Below are positions 1 to 18,663 of a stretch of DNA of 20,206 nt, piece after piece. Under the pieces are notes generated by a model. It searched no databases. It was given only the letters and a program-made list of their open reading frames with translations, and was not told the origin of the DNA. Every line of letters begins with the position of its first letter. Positions within the stretch are counted from its first letter, which is position 1. Source of the DNA: a virus; the IMG/VR virus record IMGVR_UViG_3300005909_000011, positions 1-20,206 of that record. The stretch is one strand, 5' to 3'. The position numbers were made by a program, and so were the translations under genes.

Positions 1-891
1 ATATTTAAGTTTGATGCGTACAATGAAGAGCTAACAGACGAGAACATCGAAAGATTCATAGAAAATATTTTATCTTCAGAACCGACAAAGAATGATGTTG
101 TTTATATAAGTATACCTGCACTTAACAATAAGGGGCAAACGACCTGTCCATATAGCGATTTGAGAACTACTGAGTACTATCAAAACATAATGGATACTGA
201 AATTAAAAAGGGCAATGCTCACTCATGGTATTCACTTTTCCAACAAGAACCACGCCCAAAAGGCTCAATGCTGTTTGATAACTTTAGCAATTGGTATTAC
301 ATAAAAGATTTGGGGAAGAAACATTTTTCAGGTGGTGTTTCCCATCTTGACCCTGCGGGTAAGGGTAGTAATAATACTTGTTGCATAATAGGAAAAACTC
401 TTGGAAATGATGTTTATGTTCTACCTCAAATGGTTTATACTCCAGAACAACCAAAGGTTTCTAAAGAGCTTTTAGTTGAATTTTTTAAACAAAACCATCT
501 TCACTTCGGAAAAATTACAGGTGAGGCTAATGGTGGTGGAGATCAATATTGTGAAACGCTTAATGAAAGATTAGTTGAAGCAGAAGTTCCAGTTGAGTTT
601 GATGATTATAATATTCTTGGAACTGACCAGAATAAAGAACTAAAGATATTTCTAAGCTCTGATTGGATTCTTTCTCATGTATGGTTACCTGCTGAACTTG
701 ATGAAGATGGTAATAGACAATACGAAGTTGACTCGCCAACTGATAGAGCAATAAAAGCCTTGACAAAATATGTTGGGAAGGTAGAGGGTTACTTTGTAAG
801 AAATCAAGAAGATGACTTTCTTGATTGTTTGTGTGGTATAAAAGATATTGTGGCAGAAGAAGATAATAGTTTTAGCATTGGATATATATAG
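1..891 (+). CDS. terL: Terminase large subunit, C-terminal nuclease part (5' truncated)
   Basis: The reading frame is open from base 1, so the gene starts outside the window; the TTG at 160 is internal and not a real start. The protein would be the DNA-packaging motor that cuts concatemeric phage DNA and translocates it through the portal. The sequence shows the junction typical of the end of the ATPase domain (WYSLFQQEPRPKGSMLF, bases 226-276), then an RNase H-like nuclease: a first acidic residue in HLDPAGKGSN (Asp at 349-351), a second in GEANGGGD (Glu at 523-525) and the DDFLD motif (Asp codons at 811-825). These fit the three-metal-ligand pattern of terminase nucleases. The Walker A and B motifs must lie upstream and cannot be judged. 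The stop is 8 bases before the portal gene, the classical terminase-portal order. Confidence 0.93.
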   Translation: MFKFDAYNEELTDENIERFIENILSSEPTKNDVVYISIPALNNKGQTTCPYSDLRTTEYYQNIMDTEIKKGNAHSWYSLFQQEPRPKGSMLFDNFSNWYYIKDLGKKHFSGGVSHLDPAGKGSNNTCCIIGKTLGNDVYVLPQMVYTPEQPKVSKELLVEFFKQNHLHFGKITGEANGGGDQYCETLNERLVEAEVPVEFDDYNILGTDQNKELKIFLSSDWILSHVWLPAELDEDGNRQYEVDSPTDRAIKALTKYVGKVEGYFVRNQEDDFLDCLCGIKDIVAEEDNSFSIGYI

Positions 892-899
892 GAGAACCT

Positions 900-2387
900 A
901 TGGCAAAGAAGAAAGTTGAAAAAGTAGATATGAATAAGCGTACAGCACAGTTTAGAGAAACAAATCCGAGTGAATTCAATGCATCAGAGTATGAGTATAT
1001 TTACAAAGTCAATAGGACATCTGGAGAGATATCGCTTTATAAAGGTGGTAAGGAAATTCCAAATGATATTCAAACACAATTTGGAGGATTAGGTCAGCCA
1101 GACAATGTTATTAAACCACCATGGGACACGTATGAATTAGAGTGGTTATTAAAATATAATCACACACATAGACGTTGTATGGAGTTAAAGTCAACTCTCG
1201 TGGCAGGATTTGGGTATGACTTTAGAAATAAAAACCATTCTAACTATCCAAAGCTTGAAGCATGGGCGAAGAAACCTAACTCTACGTTTGGAGATACACT
1301 TTCCAATATAGCAGTAAATGTTAAGAGACAGCATTGTAGCTTTGGATATGGACCACTAATAATTAAAAAAGCTTTTGATACAATACAAATGTTTGATGCT
1401 AAAAATACTAAATCAACCTTTGTTATTCCAAATTTTAGAAATGGTAGAAACGTAAACGGTATTCGTAAATATGTTCAACTTTCAAAAAACACAAATGAGA
1501 AAGTAGAATATTTCCCTTATAATGGCAATCCTAAACTTGGAAGAGATTACATGCATTGGTTTGGTTATAAAACTTTATCAAGTTCTTATTATCCTGAACC
1601 TGAATATTTACCTGCTAAAGATAAAATATATGAGGATATCTTCGTTGATAAAAATAATATTGATTTCTTCAAGAATCGTGCGATGGGAGATTTTGTAATA
1701 TTATTTACAGGATCGAAACTTGATGGCAAAACTAAGAATCAAGTATCAAAAGATTTTAAACAAAACATGTCACAATTTGAAGGTGTTGGGAATCAACATA
1801 AAACAATGTACCTTCACTCTCCTGGCAAAGATGCAAAGATACAAGTTGTTGATATTTCCAAAAATGAAGACGGTCAATATTCAAAACGACAGTCTGCTTT
1901 AGAGGCTTCAATAGCAAGATCATGGGGAATTACTCCATCACTTATATCACTTACTAAGAATGGAAGTGGTTTTGGTGGTGGTAGTGTAGCAATAGGAGAT
2001 TTATTCCTTGAAAATCAAATAATGATTAGACCAGAGCAACGTGATTTTGAAGAAGCTATAAATCTTATACTTGAAAGTTTATTTGGGTTTGATCCACAAA
2101 TTAAGTTTAGAACAATAGACACAAACAATCAAAAAGATATGGCAGTTATACTTACTCAAATAGTTTCATCTGGAACACCTATCTCTAAAATTGAAGCGAG
2201 AAGATATATCCACGAACATGGATTAATGGAATTAGAAAATCCAGAAACAATTCCAGAACAGGAAGATTTAATTGAACCGAACGAAAGAACACAAGTTGAT
2301 AACGAAGGTAATATAAAACCAGATGGCGATACGGATTCTAATCAAGATGATATCAATTCGATAGACGAGGATAAATTTAATGAGTAA
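900..2387 (+). CDS. Phage portal protein (PBSX/XkdE-like)
   Basis: This would be the dodecameric portal at the unique capsid vertex, docking the terminase and later the neck. The 495 residues match the usual portal length. Recognisable features are the early VIKPPWDTYELEWLL segment followed by HRRCMELKSTLVAGFGYDF, the entry signature of PBSX-type portals; a middle section with FFKNRAMGDFVILFTGSKLDG; and a C-terminal ARSWGITPSLISL...GFGGGSVAIGDLF followed by the long helix IMIRPEQRDFEEAINLILESLF. The last 50 residues are acidic and low complexity. The ATG is preceded by AGGAG at 890-894, overlapping the end of the terminase gene. Assignment rests on remembered family patterns and gene order, not on a search. 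Confidence 0.92.
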   Translation: MAKKKVEKVDMNKRTAQFRETNPSEFNASEYEYIYKVNRTSGEISLYKGGKEIPNDIQTQFGGLGQPDNVIKPPWDTYELEWLLKYNHTHRRCMELKSTLVAGFGYDFRNKNHSNYPKLEAWAKKPNSTFGDTLSNIAVNVKRQHCSFGYGPLIIKKAFDTIQMFDAKNTKSTFVIPNFRNGRNVNGIRKYVQLSKNTNEKVEYFPYNGNPKLGRDYMHWFGYKTLSSSYYPEPEYLPAKDKIYEDIFVDKNNIDFFKNRAMGDFVILFTGSKLDGKTKNQVSKDFKQNMSQFEGVGNQHKTMYLHSPGKDAKIQVVDISKNEDGQYSKRQSALEASIARSWGITPSLISLTKNGSGFGGGSVAIGDLFLENQIMIRPEQRDFEEAINLILESLFGFDPQIKFRTIDTNNQKDMAVILTQIVSSGTPISKIEARRYIHEHGLMELENPETIPEQEDLIEPNERTQVDNEGNIKPDGDTDSNQDDINSIDEDKFNE

Positions 2388-10243: not shown

Positions 10244-13200
10244 ATGGCAGATACAACAAATAGTGCTATCATACAAGAGATAAGGTTACTCGTAAAACAA
10301 GATCCACAAACACAGCCAGAGATACAAAAATTAGTTACTAAGTTAACTGCGATAGTACAGGAATTAGAAAAAAGTGGACTTAGTGCCGGTAAATTTAGTA
10401 AAATGTTATCAGATTGGACTGGTAAATTAAACGTATTCGAAACAAAACTTAAACAAACTAAACAATATTATGAACAATGGGCAAAAGAAATAGATGCGGC
10501 TATTAAGAAAGAAGCAACTGCTAGAAAACTTGTTTCAAATCAACAAAAGCAATCTCTTGATGAAATAAGAGCAAAAGAAATATCTAATATTACAGCAAAG
10601 AATAATGGATTACAAGAGTTAAATTCTTATTATAAACAACTTGAAAAAAAATCTGACATTATGCTTGAAAAACAACGACAAGCAACAATTGAGGATAATA
10701 AAAGAACGGCACAAGCAAAACAGCGAATAGCAGATGCACATCAAGAAGCAAATTTGATGAATAAACAAATTAATAAACAAAAAACTCTTAATGATAGAAC
10801 TGCACGACACGCTAAAATTAGAAAAACTTTAGGCAATACTCTTCATAAAAACGCTAATACAATGGATAGGATGCAACATAATCAAACCGTATTATCTAAT
10901 AGATTAAAAACATCAGTTGTAGGATCTACAAAATATAAAAAGATACAACAACAAACATTAGAAGTAGAAAAGAAAATATCAGCAGCAAAAGCAACTCAAA
11001 AACAAAGTTTTGGGCAAATATTCAAGAGTGCATTTAGCTTAAATAAAATGCTTAACCGTATGGCATTTGTTACAACGGCAATGATATCTTATAAAATGCT
11101 TGAGATTGGTAAAAACATGGTAAGTGGTGTTATTACTAATACTATAAAGTGGGAAGAAGAAATGTCTAAGGTTTATTCTTTATTAGATAAAACCGAAGAT
11201 AAGTTTCGTGGCTTGATGGATGAAAATGTTTTAAAGTTAATGGTTAAATATGGACAGACTTTAGAAGAATCTGTTCGTGCAGTTTATGATACATTATCAG
11301 CAAGGTTTGATCCACGTGATGTTGGTATTATTACTGAAGCATCAGCAACATTAGCAATAGCTGAATTCACTGATATTAGAACTGCTACTGATTTATTGAC
11401 TACTACTTTAAATTCATTTAACCTTAAAGCTTCTGATTCAGATAGAATTATAAACTTACTTTCACAAACAATTACCGATGCTAAGTCCACGATTCAAGAG
11501 ATGGGACCGAACTTTGGTAAGATTGCTGCATCTGCAAGTGCTTTAAACCTTAGTCTTGAAGATACAGTTGCTCTATTCTCATTACTTACAATTAAAGGTA
11601 TCAAAACAGACGTTGCAATTACTGCAATCCGACAGTTGATGTTTACACTCGCCGCTCCAACAGGTAAAGCTAAGAAAGCTATGGATGAATATGGTGTTAA
11701 CCTTAGTCTTGCAAGAATTAAAGCAGAAGGATTCAAAGTTATCCTTGAAGAACTTAAAGGTGCTGATGAAGAATTCCTATTTACTTTAGTTAAAACAAGA
11801 CGTGGTGCACAGGCTTTACTTCCAATGTTAAACTCTGGTGCTATGTTCATGGAGATTCTTAAAAACCAAACTGATGGTACTACTGCTGCATTTGATAAGT
11901 TTGAGGAACGATCTGAGATTACAAAGATTGCAATTGATAAATTAAAGAATTCATTCTTCTTACTTGGACAATCTATTGGAGAAGATTTTAATGAACCAAT
12001 TAGGGAAGGGGCAGAAAGTTTAACTGCATTTAATATAGCTGCTGCTAATTTTAAGGATACTGGTTTTGGTGCTGCATTATTAAAAATTCTTGGGACAATA
12101 ATATCAATAACTGCTTTTGTTGGAACTCTTGGATTATTCCAATGGTTATTTAAAACTGCACCATTAGTTTCTGCAGGAAAGGCAATAGCATCAGTATCTA
12201 TTAAATTATTTAAGCTTATAAAATTACTTTATAGTGTACCAATAGCTTTAGGTAAATGGTATTTACCTGCGAATTTCTTTGCTAATTTTGCCAAAGGAAT
12301 AGTTAAGTTAGGTGGTCATTTAGTTAAATTAAATGGTCATCTAGTTAAATTTTCTAAAACTATTCTTTCAATTCCTGCTTTGATTGCTGCTATGTGGGCA
12401 ATACCAGTAAGTGGCGATATTCCTGAATTTGGATATTTAGAAATGCTTGATGAGATGGATAAAAAAAATATCGAAAGAGAAAAAGAAAGAACTGCTAATA
12501 CTGTAAAGCAGATGAGAGCATTTGATGAACAAAGAAAAAAGCAAATTGAATATTATACTTCTACTCTATGGTTTTATGATCAATTAACAGATCAAGAAAA
12601 AGCATTATACTCTTTAAAAATAAGAAATGAAAATACAGAAGCAAGAATTCTTGAATTACAAAAGAAAAGAAATGAAGAAAATAAATTTAATGCCATTACC
12701 ACAGCTAAAGAAGAACTTGAACTAGCACAAAAAATATACGATAGGCAACAAGCATTAGCAACGTCTGAATTTAATAGAAATAAAAATATAGAAACATTTA
12801 ATAAGATACAAACAAGCAATATAAATAATTTAATTAAATATGAAGAAGACTATATAGCTGTTGTCGCTAAAGGGTCTATCGCACAAATTGAAGCACAAAC
12901 AAGATTAAATAATTTAATAGCAAAAAAGAATTCTCTATTATTATTTGTTGGTCCTCCTGAACGTGATTATACACCAGTTGATTTAACACAACAAATGGAT
13001 GTTGATGAATTCGCTAAAATACAGAATGATTTATATAGAACAATAAGTGATGGTGGCGATATTGCCACTGGAAAGATACTTGAATTATATAATACTACAA
13101 ATATGTCACAAGAACAAATGATAATCCTAATGAAACTAATAAAAAAACTTTTAGGTGAAGTTGATTCATCAGGTGAGGAAGAAGGATTAAACTGGAAGAA

Positions 13201-14125
13201 CATATTAGGTGTTCCAGATTTTGAAACTGAAGCTGATGCTCTTGCTTATGCTGAACAACAGCTTGCAGATAGTATCATGGCAATAGGCGATCAAATTTTA
13301 CAGCATCAACTTGATGCAATAGAAACTAGAAAGGAAAGAGATTTAGAAGCATTAGCTGAAAGATATGATGCTTATCGTGACCATGTTTCTGGTACTATAC
13401 TTACCGAAGGTCATAAAGCTAAAGTCATGGAAGCACTTGCCAAAAAAGAAGCTGAAAAGAAAGCTGAGATTGAGAAAAAAGCTGCTGAAGCTATGGCAAA
13501 ACAACAAAAAAGAAATGCACAATATTCTGCAGGACTTGATTATGCTCGTGGTGTTGTAGGAATACTGGCAACTGAATTTGGTTCTAAAGGAATACTTGGA
13601 ATACCAACAGCAGAATTCTTGCAAGGAATGTTGCTTACGGCATTTCTTGCTCAAATGGCAATCATAAGTGGAACTAAATATGCAACTGGTGGAATATCAG
13701 ACGGACCGTCTCATACACAAGGTGGAATCCAGATGTATCATAAGTCTGGTGCTCACATGGGAGAGATGGAAGGGCACGAAATGATTCATTCTAAGAAAGC
13801 AACTACTGGGAATGAAGATTATCTTTTAGCTCAAAATTCTGCTTTATCTAAAGGTGTATCTCCAACTGACTTTGCCACGAGATATTTAAGTAATTCATTA
13901 GAAAAATATGTTTCACCAGCTCCACGATTATCTTATGCAGTTGGTGGTATTTCACAAACTACTCCATCATCTTCTGGATTAAGCACAGCAGTTTTACAAG
14001 GGACAATAGATAAACAATCAGAAATACTTGACAAGAATCTTGAAGTATTAGAAGATATAGCTGAAAGTAATCGTGGCACTAAAGATAATACAAAGAAGAT
14101 TAGCAAGAAAGGTGGCAGGTATTAA
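10244..14125 (+). CDS. Tail tape measure protein (TP901 type)
   Basis: This 1293-residue protein would set tail length and be ejected with the DNA. Residues 1-270 are a charged coiled-coil region rich in Lys, Gln and Glu. Residues about 273-590 form the TP901 core: WEEEMSKVYSLLDKTEDKFR, YGQTLEESVRAVYDTLSA, EMGPNFGKIAASASALNLSL and AITAIRQLMFTLAAPTGKAK are characteristic. Residues about 608-725 are strongly hydrophobic with several possible membrane segments, including ALLKILGTIISITAFVG. A second coiled coil spans about 1000-1090. Near residue 1145 KYATGGISDGPSHTQGGIQ and EMEGHEMIHSKKA form the usual Gly-rich C-terminal tape measure motif. At about 0.15 nm per residue the tail would be near 190 nm (inference). 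No peptidase or lysozyme domain was recognised. Confidence 0.93.
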   Translation: MADTTNSAIIQEIRLLVKQDPQTQPEIQKLVTKLTAIVQELEKSGLSAGKFSKMLSDWTGKLNVFETKLKQTKQYYEQWAKEIDAAIKKEATARKLVSNQQKQSLDEIRAKEISNITAKNNGLQELNSYYKQLEKKSDIMLEKQRQATIEDNKRTAQAKQRIADAHQEANLMNKQINKQKTLNDRTARHAKIRKTLGNTLHKNANTMDRMQHNQTVLSNRLKTSVVGSTKYKKIQQQTLEVEKKISAAKATQKQSFGQIFKSAFSLNKMLNRMAFVTTAMISYKMLEIGKNMVSGVITNTIKWEEEMSKVYSLLDKTEDKFRGLMDENVLKLMVKYGQTLEESVRAVYDTLSARFDPRDVGIITEASATLAIAEFTDIRTATDLLTTTLNSFNLKASDSDRIINLLSQTITDAKSTIQEMGPNFGKIAASASALNLSLEDTVALFSLLTIKGIKTDVAITAIRQLMFTLAAPTGKAKKAMDEYGVNLSLARIKAEGFKVILEELKGADEEFLFTLVKTRRGAQALLPMLNSGAMFMEILKNQTDGTTAAFDKFEERSEITKIAIDKLKNSFFLLGQSIGEDFNEPIREGAESLTAFNIAAANFKDTGFGAALLKILGTIISITAFVGTLGLFQWLFKTAPLVSAGKAIASVSIKLFKLIKLLYSVPIALGKWYLPANFFANFAKGIVKLGGHLVKLNGHLVKFSKTILSIPALIAAMWAIPVSGDIPEFGYLEMLDEMDKKNIEREKERTANTVKQMRAFDEQRKKQIEYYTSTLWFYDQLTDQEKALYSLKIRNENTEARILELQKKRNEENKFNAITTAKEELELAQKIYDRQQALATSEFNRNKNIETFNKIQTSNINNLIKYEEDYIAVVAKGSIAQIEAQTRLNNLIAKKNSLLLFVGPPERDYTPVDLTQQMDVDEFAKIQNDLYRTISDGGDIATGKILELYNTTNMSQEQMIILMKLIKKLLGEVDSSGEEEGLNWKNILGVPDFETEADALAYAEQQLADSIMAIGDQILQHQLDAIETRKERDLEALAERYDAYRDHVSGTILTEGHKAKVMEALAKKEAEKKAEIEKKAAEAMAKQQKRNAQYSAGLDYARGVVGILATEFGSKGILGIPTAEFLQGMLLTAFLAQMAIISGTKYATGGISDGPSHTQGGIQMYHKSGAHMGEMEGHEMIHSKKATTGNEDYLLAQNSALSKGVSPTDFATRYLSNSLEKYVSPAPRLSYAVGGISQTTPSSSGLSTAVLQGTIDKQSEILDKNLEVLEDIAESNRGTKDNTKKISKKGGRY

Positions 14126-17100
14126 ATGTTATATGTAAAGTTTATACAGAATTGGAGTAATAGCGAGCTTACAAATACAGGAACACCAGAAACTCCTGCT
14201 TATGCTTATGATGAACCTAAAAATACTTCTGTTTATTCTGATGGTTTAAAACTTAAAGATATAGATTATGATGCTGAAAGCTACATGGCAGATGATTTCT
14301 TTCTGCGTGAACCACGAGAAGCTAAAATTGAATTATTTAGAGATGATGATGATTGGTTAAGAGATAACTTTCTTTATCAAAACGATAATGAGATAAACCA
14401 CGTTCTTTATATGGATGAAGATGGAACTATTTTAGAATATGAAGGAATAGACCCAGATTTATCTATTGGTGATCAGTTAGATGGCGGAACAATAGATGAT
14501 AAAGAAGTTCTTATACAACAGTTTTCTAAAATAATAGTAGAGATATGGGATACTAATAGTGGAATAGTTTTTACAGGATTAGTCGATAAGTCTCAAACAT
14601 CTGCTACTCATAAAAGGATTACATTAAATTGTGTAGATTTTACTGGATTAATAAAAATATTTGGTGAACAATTAATTAAGATAATTATTGATGACCCAGA
14701 TATAGAAGATTATTATCAATTTATAGTTTCAATAAATATTATTGATGAATTATTTGACAAGATAAAGAATTTTACAAAACTTGAAATAACAACAAGTAAT
14801 GGTGTTGAAAATTATACAAACGGGATAGTAACAAATAATAATAATAATTTAGACATTAATGATTATGATATAATTTGGGAGCCAGATAATCAATATTATA
14901 ATGGTGATGTCGAGACATTTCAAGACGTTAGTATATTTGCAAGTGATGAAGAAAAAGCTTTTATTATTTATAAATGTTTTACGTGGAGCAAAACGTATGA
15001 AACATCAGATCCACAACAATATACAGTTACGGATTTCTATCTTACAATATTAGCATATGAGTGGAACGTTGATGGAATTTCTGGGGTAAATTATGCTACA
15101 TATTTATTAGCTTATCATGGTCCTCCAGGTGATATTGTGTATATGACAGCTATAAATGCCGTTAAACAATTTCAAACAGTAAAACTTATGGCTGCTGCAT
15201 TTATAGATGATGATCTATTAATTAATTATGTTGCAATAAATTCTAGTGGGAATTATGATATTATACAGATAACACAAGATAGATATTCTGTAGCAATACC
15301 AATTTATGCAGATACTTATGAGTATATGGAATTATTTAAAACAATTCTTTTCTTAAATATTTTAACTATTTATGCTGATGGTAATGGAAATATTAATGTT
15401 AAAAGTAAATATTTTGAAGATGAAGTAGAAGGAGCATCAACTATAATAAACGAAAGAGATATAATGGATGGCTATACTTTAGGTGCTATAGAAAAGGATG
15501 AGATTGAAATGTCTGATGCTTTAGAGCCAATTTGGTATGATACAGAGACCGAAGGTGCATTATACGATAACTTAGATAATAAAATGAAAGAAGAGTTCTC
15601 AGAATTGTTTATTAGTAGGTTTCCTATCGAATTCAATGGTAGTATTAAATACAATTCAGTTGATATTGGAACTATTAATGATATAATTATTGGAAGTAAG
15701 TTAGAATTTTTTGATAGAGATTGGATAGTTATTTCAAAACAATTAAATAAAACTAATTTTTCAACAAAAATAAAAGCTTTTGGATTAGGGGAAATATCTA
15801 CATACATACCAGGACCATTACTACTTACTATGCCATTAATTAGAAATGAAGAATTAAATAATACATTAGACTTAGCTGCTGGAACAGAGATTACTGTTTC
15901 TTCAATTGATACTGATGCAAATACAATAACATTATCTTGGTTACCAGATATTGTAACCGTTGTTTCGCCAACAGTTGGTAAGGAATGGGCATTATTAAAT
16001 CTTAATAATTTCTCTGTAGCTGACCCGGGACTTACTGGTGATTATGAAGATATAATGAAAATAACAAGTGGAACATATTCAACAAAAGTATTAAATTATA
16101 CGGCAGTTCTTGGAGCTGAGGGTAATTGGAATGTTGGGGATAGGGTTGCACTATATAATGCACTTGATACTGGGTGGGATTGGAAGGTTGACCCATTAAT
16201 AGAAGAATCTGGAGCTGGATGGCGGGAAGTGTATGTTGCTCCATCAGGTATTTTTCAGAAGATAGATGGAACATATGTAATGCTTGTACTTGGTAAAAAT
16301 TCAGCTAACGTTAAATCCATTGGTGCTTTTTCGTGTAATGATCCATCATTAGAATCATGGAGTGTTATGAATGGGGATGCTGCTATCTTTACTCATGGAG
16401 CTTATGCTTGGTGTGCAAATAGTATTTCAATGTACAAGTGTATGCTTGTTGAAGGAGAAACGGATAGATATATTGCTTACGTTGCGGGTGATAATGCAGG
16501 TTCTGTTTGGAATATAGGTTATGTAAAATTTAATGAAGACTTTAGTAATATAGTATGGTCTGCTGATTCTATAATTGATTCAAGTGCTTATGCCGATGGA
16601 TTTACAGGTGCATCTGTTATAAATCATAATGGTATGTATAGAATGATGGTAGTTGGGAGAAGTGCTGATATATTAACAGAAGCATGGGAAGTTGTAGAGG
16701 CAACATCAACAACACAAGAAGGACCGTTTATTAATCAGGAAGTTATTATGGCTGGAATTACCGATAATCAGGGTATCTTTAATAGTAGTCATACGGATGC
16801 ATTTTCTTATTTCAAATATGATGGAAAACTATATTGTATTATTGGAGGAACATCAAGATGGAGAGAAAGCGGAAACAAAGTAAATAGAATATATGGGTTA
16901 ATGAAATTTAATGATAGTACGGAGACATGGACAATATTAGACCAATCTCCACTTTTTATGAATCCACTGGCTGGTTATTATATGTGGGGGGCTGATTGGG
17001 CATGGGGGCAAGACCATCTCGGTGGTACTCCAACTCTTAATTATTATAATGGAAAATTATATAATTATATGACTGCTAATAACGGTACTGATGCATATAA

Positions 17101-17146
17101 GATATGTCAATTTTCAATAGAGATGGATGATGAATTTGAACTTTAA
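14126..17146 (+). CDS. Tail hub protein with C-terminal five-bladed propeller-like domain
   Basis: The ATG directly follows the tape measure stop. Residues 1-560 resemble a tail hub or Tal-like baseplate protein: VEIWDTNSGIVFTGLVDKSQ, a block ending in NCVDFTGLIKIFGEQL, a second half with GNGNINVKSKYFEDEVEGAS, and FDRDWIVISKQLNKTNFSTK near residue 532. Residues about 560-680 are a beta-rich linker. From residue 681 (DTGWDWKVDP) to the end, five units recur with an Asp/Asn-Gly-x-Tyr/Leu strand motif at residues 714, 780, 835, 899 and 975. The second unit is the weakest, with DRY in place of DG. Together with FSCNDPSLESW and the first-blade pattern GAGWREVYVAPSG, this resembles five-bladed propellers of the GH32/43/130 type. 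The domain probably binds, and could cleave, a surface glycan. Catalytic residues were not identified. Confidence 0.75.
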   Translation: MLYVKFIQNWSNSELTNTGTPETPAYAYDEPKNTSVYSDGLKLKDIDYDAESYMADDFFLREPREAKIELFRDDDDWLRDNFLYQNDNEINHVLYMDEDGTILEYEGIDPDLSIGDQLDGGTIDDKEVLIQQFSKIIVEIWDTNSGIVFTGLVDKSQTSATHKRITLNCVDFTGLIKIFGEQLIKIIIDDPDIEDYYQFIVSINIIDELFDKIKNFTKLEITTSNGVENYTNGIVTNNNNNLDINDYDIIWEPDNQYYNGDVETFQDVSIFASDEEKAFIIYKCFTWSKTYETSDPQQYTVTDFYLTILAYEWNVDGISGVNYATYLLAYHGPPGDIVYMTAINAVKQFQTVKLMAAAFIDDDLLINYVAINSSGNYDIIQITQDRYSVAIPIYADTYEYMELFKTILFLNILTIYADGNGNINVKSKYFEDEVEGASTIINERDIMDGYTLGAIEKDEIEMSDALEPIWYDTETEGALYDNLDNKMKEEFSELFISRFPIEFNGSIKYNSVDIGTINDIIIGSKLEFFDRDWIVISKQLNKTNFSTKIKAFGLGEISTYIPGPLLLTMPLIRNEELNNTLDLAAGTEITVSSIDTDANTITLSWLPDIVTVVSPTVGKEWALLNLNNFSVADPGLTGDYEDIMKITSGTYSTKVLNYTAVLGAEGNWNVGDRVALYNALDTGWDWKVDPLIEESGAGWREVYVAPSGIFQKIDGTYVMLVLGKNSANVKSIGAFSCNDPSLESWSVMNGDAAIFTHGAYAWCANSISMYKCMLVEGETDRYIAYVAGDNAGSVWNIGYVKFNEDFSNIVWSADSIIDSSAYADGFTGASVINHNGMYRMMVVGRSADILTEAWEVVEATSTTQEGPFINQEVIMAGITDNQGIFNSSHTDAFSYFKYDGKLYCIIGGTSRWRESGNKVNRIYGLMKFNDSTETWTILDQSPLFMNPLAGYYMWGADWAWGQDHLGGTPTLNYYNGKLYNYMTANNGTDAYKICQFSIEMDDEFEL

Positions 17147-17763: not shown

Positions 17764-18663
17764 ATGGCACAAGAATTTGTAGCGAGAGTAAATTTAGCTC
17801 TATATGATCCAAACGGAACAACTATAACAACAGCCTCATTGAGAAAAGCGTATAAAGGTGCTGGTGGTTATGGTATAGTTGGAGATGCAGGAGATGGAGA
17901 CCCAGAATCAGTAGCTATTCCAGCATCTTCATTAAGTATGACAAGAGGTGTTGTATCGAGCTTCAATGCTGATTATTATAATTGGTATGTAGATATAGAT
18001 GTAAGTTATACTTATACTTTATTTATTGATACAGCCGCAACCACAACCTTAGTTTGTGAAATGTTTTTTAGCATGGATAAATTACCAGCAATTGGCGTTA
18101 ATTCAAAACATGTTGCAGGTGATGGTTCTGATCATAGTGCTGTTGCAAGTAATACATCCCATAGAGCTTTAGTAACTACAAACCCACATAGTGTAGATAC
18201 AAGTGCAGCAAATGGAGTTGATTTAGCAAATGTAGACAATACAAGTGATGCTACTAAAAATGCTGCTGCGGTTACATTAACAAATAAAACCTTAACAACT
18301 CCAGTTATTGAAAAAATATACCAAGATGCTGGAAAGACTAAATTACTTACCTTACCTGCTGATACAGATACTTTAGCGGTTAATGACGATATGTTAAGTG
18401 ATGATCAATTTCTTGCTAAATTAGTTGATGGTTCTGCTAACTCAAATGAAGCGTTATCTTATATATCTAATTTAATATCCGATAGTGCTGTTGTAGGTAG
18501 AATTATGGCAGAGCAAAAACGAACAAGTTATATTTCTGGGACAGTAACTCCTGTTGCTGCAGTTATTCCAGATTATGTTGGTCAAGAATATCTTGATACC
18601 GCAACTAATATTTGGTATAAATCAGTTGACTTGTTAGCCGCAAATTGGGAAGCGTTAAATTAA
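17764..18663 (+). CDS. Putative tail fibre protein
   Basis: The ATG follows AAAGGAG at 17752-17758. The 299-residue product has an N-terminal beta-rich attachment domain (EFVARVNLALYDPNGTTITT) to about residue 118. It is followed by a His-containing low-complexity stretch (AGDGSDHSAVASNTSHRALV then TTNPHSVD) and by VDNTSDATKNAAAVTLTNKT and LTTPVI, repeats typical of phage fibre shafts. The C-terminus (PDYVGQEYLDTATNIWYKS...NWEALN) is the 'P..G..Y.DT..N..Y....W..L' module seen at the end of many fibre or minor tail proteins. It would project from the baseplate, but no receptor-binding head is obvious, so the receptor contact may lie elsewhere. Confidence 0.65.
   Translation: MAQEFVARVNLALYDPNGTTITTASLRKAYKGAGGYGIVGDAGDGDPESVAIPASSLSMTRGVVSSFNADYYNWYVDIDVSYTYTLFIDTAATTTLVCEMFFSMDKLPAIGVNSKHVAGDGSDHSAVASNTSHRALVTTNPHSVDTSAANGVDLANVDNTSDATKNAAAVTLTNKTLTTPVIEKIYQDAGKTKLLTLPADTDTLAVNDDMLSDDQFLAKLVDGSANSNEALSYISNLISDSAVVGRIMAEQKRTSYISGTVTPVAAVIPDYVGQEYLDTATNIWYKSVDLLAANWEALN

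Follow-up and report, generated by a model that had tools for sequence, protein, structure and literature searches.

A predicted five-bladed, glycoside hydrolase-like β-propeller at the C-terminus of a presumed tail hub protein in an environmental phage

Introduction

Five-bladed β-propellers are known from the tail tips of phages. The receptor-binding protein of phi11 carries one with a GlcNAc-sized cavity (PMC4901313), and for both phi11 gp45 and 80alpha gp61 the propeller at the tail tip is proposed to bind sugar, namely the GlcNAc of teichoic acid (PMC4901313, PMC7048315). In these phages the propeller forms part of a separate, peripheral receptor-binding protein with stem and tower domains. 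A different arrangement is seen in lambda gpJ and 80alpha gp59, tail-tip proteins that are encoded near the tape measure gene and end in a receptor-binding or hydrolase-like domain (PMC7291167, PMC7048315); the C-terminus of gpJ binds the receptor (PMC7291167). The same propeller fold serves catalysis in several glycoside hydrolase (GH) families. The central cavity of GH43 enzymes holds a base Asp, a pKa-modulating Asp and an acid Glu (Asp14, Asp121 and Glu177; PMC5919610), the candidate acid Asp of GH130 is Asp142 in BT3780 (PMC4599007), and GH43 subfamily 24 is active without the base Asp, using a Gln (PMC7939473).

Here we analyse a 1006-aa protein encoded in a linear IMG/VR virus record of 20,206 bases (GC 32.6%, with clear Shine-Dalgarno sites), the whole of which we call the window. 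The last third of this protein (16166-17146, equal to residues 681-1006 plus the stop codon) likely folds, according to a predicted model, as a five-bladed β-propeller. The domain is like the propeller glycosidases and phosphorylases of GH130, GH43, GH32 and GH117 (for example PDB 9fj8, 7fip, 3taw and 3k1u) in predicted fold, in size (~320 residues) and in blade register, and shares with them the blade motif [DN]G-x-Y...IG...D...W; it differs in its low identity (~10-14%), in the absence of a family-level profile match and of the catalytic D-P, and in being fused behind a phage tail protein. Unlike the phi11 and 80alpha propellers it is borne by that tail protein itself, and a sequence-to-sequence comparison with the phi11 propeller detected no similarity. 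The C-terminal addition is a predicted GH-like propeller, whereas that of 80alpha is SGNH/GDSL-like, the presumed hub of the window being likened to these proteins by gene order. Phages are already known to have propellers in receptor-binding proteins and to carry receptor-binding or hydrolase domains at the C-terminus of tail-tip proteins, and the present case is a variation on a known theme. The literature searched contained no report of a GH-type five-bladed propeller on a central tail protein, which does not prove that none exists.

Results

The late operon of the window runs from part of a terminase through the portal, tape measure and 1006-aa ORFs to a 174-aa ORF and a fibre-like ORF (Table 1). 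Its near relatives are other environmental fragments, none of which covers the C-terminal third of the 1006-aa protein, and a portal-based genome scan found no host. The fibre-like ORF contains repeats such as DHSAVASNTSHRA and LTNKTLTTPVI and is a second candidate for host contact.

Table 1. Features of the late operon and of the 1006-aa protein (coordinates refer to the window)
Feature	Coordinates	Strand	Basis or remark
Terminase part	1-891		Named by reading of the sequence, no search match behind the name
Portal	900-2387		phrog_12, 3.3e-14
Tape measure protein	10244-14125		Pfam PhageMin_Tail 7.8e-27; phrog_1533 2.5e-46
1006-aa hub-like tail protein	14126..17146	+	Open frame; starts right after the tape measure stop at 14125
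Presumed hub (Tal/gp27-like) part, residues 1-566	14126..15823	+	Synteny and L002 conservation; presumptive assignment, boundary approximate
Probable beta-rich linker domain, residues 567-680	15824..16165	+	Read from sequence only
Predicted five-bladed beta-propeller, residues 681-1003	16166..17134	+	Blade profile, AF2 model, Foldseek
WDWKVDPLI, residues 684-692, likely strand d of blade 5	16175..16201	+	Suggested by the register of the N-P-[IV]-[LF] strand opening the L024, L051 and L055 propellers
Blade 1, residues 703-748, DGTY 714 (16265)	16232..16369	+	DSSP strands 703-711, 717-724, 730-737; pattern match 16265-16360
Blade 2, residues 766-817, DRY 780	16421..16576	+	DSSP strands 766-774, 782-789, 795-802
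Blade 3, residues 826-870, NGMY 835	16601..16735	+	DSSP strands 826-834, 837-844, 849-854
Blade 4, residues 890-938, DGKL 899	16793..16939	+	DSSP strands 890-898, 901-911, 919-929, 934-938
Blade 5, residues 964-998, NGKL 975	17015..17119	+	DSSP strands 964-974, 977-985, 991-998
174-aa ORF			Follows the 1006-aa ORF in the late operon
Fibre-like ORF	17764-18663		phrog_3030 4.9e-7; two ORFs downstream of 14126-17146

The N-terminus of the 1006-aa protein shares 60% identity over 398 aa with the ORF that follows the tape measure gene in viral contig L002, so that the order of tape measure and hub-like ORF is common to both. Residues 1-566 matched no Pfam, PHROG, NCBIfam or PDB profile, and neither sequence nor profile comparison linked this part to a gp27-like fold or hub profile; the match to L002 ends at hub residue 398. 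That the protein is the hub is plausible from synteny and from its conserved N-terminus. The earlier note had placed the propeller on the tail hub, a proposal that the adjoining tape measure gene makes plausible, although the profile and PDB searches did not confirm the hub. Residues 567-680, which have no family match, resemble a small separate β domain between the hub part and the propeller. The L002 protein (L002:2855-4300, against 14126-15319 of the window) has near its N-terminus an insertion of ~70-75 residues that the window protein lacks; the sequence right after it is nearly identical in the two, marking a modular insertion site.

Five strand motifs had been described at residues 714, 780, 835, 899 and 975, and this is exactly where they lie (DGTY, DRYI, NGMY, DGKL and NGKL, with spacings of 66, 55, 64 and 76). 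In the form first given, Asp/Asn-x-x-Tyr/Leu, the motif tells little, since seven copies in the domain compare with 4.9 expected and are reached by 980 of 5000 shuffles; moreover, DRYI at residue 780 falls outside its literal form. When the blade motif is tightened to [DN][GR]-x-[YLWF] with alternating hydrophobics after it, there are six copies against 0.2 expected, a number that none of 5000 shuffles attained. This strict form was defined after the sequence had been viewed and serves as a guide only; for that reason further tests were run. Two other stretches, GWRE...PSG and FSCNDPSLESW, had been likened to GH32/43/130 propellers. Both can be read in the domain, but the second forms the turn from strand c to strand d in blade 1 and is no active-site motif, its NDPSLESW being the counterpart of S-x-D-G-x-x-W in related propellers.

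Searched alone, the propeller domain matched nothing in family libraries (Pfam, PHROGs, NCBIfam), the PDB, INPHARED or PLSDB, and no close relative was found. Taken together, scans of viral contigs with the hub, the domain, its last blade and the downstream gene gave only L002 and an 18-residue match to a GHKL-ATPase-like protein in L011, which we ascribe to chance. More distant relatives were sought with a DNA pattern taken from blade 1 (DG-x-Y-x-M ... IG ... D ... W). It occurred in 37 viral stretches, among which L019, L024 (with L037), L030, L034 and L042 encode true propellers and the remainder are chance hits. L024 and L019 exceed the curated Pfam thresholds of GH130 and/or GH32. L024, which is also similar to solved structures of GH130, GH32, GH43 and GH117, served as query for a genome scan that yielded seven further propellers (L051-L057). 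Similar to L024, and not directly to the window domain, are the GH130/GH32-like propellers of two Methanofastidiosa viruses, Caudoviricetes sp. vir520 and vir521, which are separate ORFs of ~475-490 aa near the end of the late-gene run. These ORFs (L058:7536-8963 and L059:8476-9948) are unannotated and likely encode fibre-type proteins.

A profile built from 17 blades of four virus-contig propellers (L019, L024, L034 and L042) matched the full 1006-aa protein with an E-value of 1.1e-6 and three blades in register, the next-best protein of the window reaching 0.12. The GH43 locus YagH of E. coli, taken up as a possible seed, was left out. Because the contigs had been picked by the blade-1 pattern, the test was repeated in a less circular way, leaving out the blades that the pattern had hit and scoring only blades 2-5. 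The score then lay above those of all 2000 shuffles, and among 693 ORFs, at an E-value of 0.009, only the true propellers ranked higher; of the individual blades, blade 3 did best in these comparisons. The whole domain scored 16.9 bits, against at most 13.7 in 5000 shuffles, and BLASTP to L024 gave an E-value of 0.002, with the two sequences in the same blade register along the best segment. A global MAFFT alignment to five propellers contained 276 identities, compared with 216 +/- 18 for shuffled sequences and reached by 0 of 150; this excess depends on the same chosen set of relatives as the motif agreement, yet it is the safer figure. The motif agreement, 25/25 in the MAFFT alignment, was discarded: the set had been picked as the most favourable out of many, and part of the agreement stems from MAFFT favouring aromatic columns (15 of 150 shuffles did as well). 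Also dropped was a comparison of the domain with alignment A4, which contained the domain and was therefore circular. A narrower profile, built from the blades of L051-L057, which are more uniform, missed the domain, and hhalign with the single sequence gave a probability of 3%, with one of 150 shuffles scoring higher. Taking all these tests together, we regard the sequence signal as real, though close to the limit of what sequence methods can detect.

Structure prediction pointed the same way. The AF2 model of the single sequence was poor (pLDDT 38) and was kept out of the fold search. With a six-sequence alignment (A7) that includes five remote propellers, AF2 reached a pTM of 0.68 and a pLDDT of 61.6, and the model shows five units of three to four strands each, against the four antiparallel strands per blade of the GH-type fold. 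Blades 1 and 2 are best modelled, parts of blades 3-5 lie below a pLDDT of 50, and the loops of blade 4, the blade whose Asp891 is near the GH43 general-acid position, are of low local confidence. The N-terminal strand 684-692 likely closes the ring at blade 5, as its sequence register suggests. Foldseek matched the model to PDB propellers of GH130, GH43, GH32, GH62 and GH117 at the head of the list (E ~1e-8, TM on target up to 0.70), and among the best 50 matches listed nearly all are GH propeller enzymes, the polysaccharide lyase 7drq being an exception; in a viral library the matches were weaker and fell on diverse propellers of tails and fibres. As A7 is made of propellers and biases the model towards one, AF2 and Foldseek are support and not proof. 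The GH-like propeller that the earlier note had read from the repeats is supported, with moderate confidence for the model, by blade profile, alignment, fold prediction and structural search alike, and the repeated blade motif recurs both in its strict form and in the blade profiles.

The active-site motifs of GH32 are N-D-P-N-G and R-D-P, and the catalytic Asp of GH130 lies in E-D-P-R. The catalytic places of GH43 we took, on our own reading of the family motifs, to be those at the appropriate spacing from the strand-b Tyr. Located through sequence spacing and the strands of the model rather than through coordinates, they fall on Ala705/Pro706 (blade 1), Gly828 (blade 3) and Asp891 (blade 4); by sequence position only one of the three is acidic, and the GH43 triad is incomplete. 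The D-P of GH43, GH32 and GH130 stands at no inner strand start, the only two in the domain being at 689 (strand d) and 739 (a turn). PF04616 (GH43) gave no match up to an E-value of 10, the PF04041 profile of GH130 was unmatched, with DPR or DP at no inner strand, and the GH32 active-site motifs were not found, NDPS 738-741 following strand c of blade 1 and not starting an inner strand. The suggested entry depolymerase is not supported, two of the three GH43 positions being non-acidic and no inner strand beginning with D-P.

Discussion

The lack of D-P motifs at inner strand starts and the presence of a single acidic residue, Asp891, at the three positions make glycan binding likelier than catalysis. 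We think it probable that this GH-like propeller is no longer a glycosidase and serves as a carbohydrate- (receptor-) binding domain; catalysis would have been lost, to judge from the residues in the mapped places, and sugar binding is suggested by the fold class. The phi11 propeller and the C-terminus of lambda gpJ are precedents, and a glycan- or receptor-binding role appears a better reading than a depolymerase. Should the protein be a trimeric hub like other Tal proteins, as synteny and analogy suggest, three propellers would lie below the tail tip, where they could hold the phage on surface polysaccharide while the hub opens.

β-Propellers commonly act as protein-binding scaffolds, and this general property raises the prospect of a module without any carbohydrate role, one that is structural or binds protein, whether to attach a fibre or to engage a host protein receptor. 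The fibre-like protein encoded two ORFs downstream (17764-18663) could dock on such a module. Yet the closest folds are carbohydrate-active, and the vir520 and vir521 propellers are separate genes near the end of the late-gene run and not adaptors, which leaves this explanation unlikely.

Could the propeller instead be enzymatically active and, with altered catalytic residues, clear surface polysaccharide at the tail axis as a glycosidase or depolymerase? Most members of the fold class are carbohydrate enzymes, several inner strands have an acidic residue close to their top (Glu701, Asp824, Asp891 and Asp963), and Asp891 is close to the general-acid position of GH43. Precedents exist in the C-terminal SGNH/GDSL-like domain of 80alpha Tal, with putative activity (PMC7048315), and in the Gln that replaces the base Asp in GH43 subfamily 24 (PMC7939473); because of the latter, sequence alone leaves room for catalysis. 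Against this stand the inner strands free of D-P and, in the spacing- and model-based mapping, Ala705/Pro706 and Gly828 in blades 1 and 3, and we consider an active enzyme quite unlikely. A more specific version, in which the C-terminal propeller of the central tail-tip protein is an exo-glycosidase with non-standard residues that trims a glycan at the tail axis and so triggers DNA release, strikes us as highly improbable. Finally, the weak hhalign and narrow-profile results, the moderate pLDDT and the use of an alignment consisting of propellers would fit a domain that is β-rich but no five-bladed propeller, its motif and model being artefacts of an aromatic-rich β sequence and of alignment choice, but the agreement of an independent blade profile, the alignment against shuffles, five evenly spaced units and the strand pattern makes this very doubtful.

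If the carbohydrate-binding reading is right, the window is a further example of phage tails recruiting the fold of a carbohydrate enzyme. The fold would be borne by a presumed central tail protein and not by a peripheral fibre, and the phage lineage is an environmental one that is otherwise unannotated. Such a domain would also offer a testable candidate for sugar recognition and an aid to annotating similar orphan C-terminal domains that profile libraries miss.

The GC content rises from ~28% before the domain to 36% within it (15950-17146). A recent acquisition of the domain was considered and rejected, as its GC at third codon positions agrees with codon usage in the other genes (z -0.7); the rise reflects amino-acid composition and not foreign codon usage.
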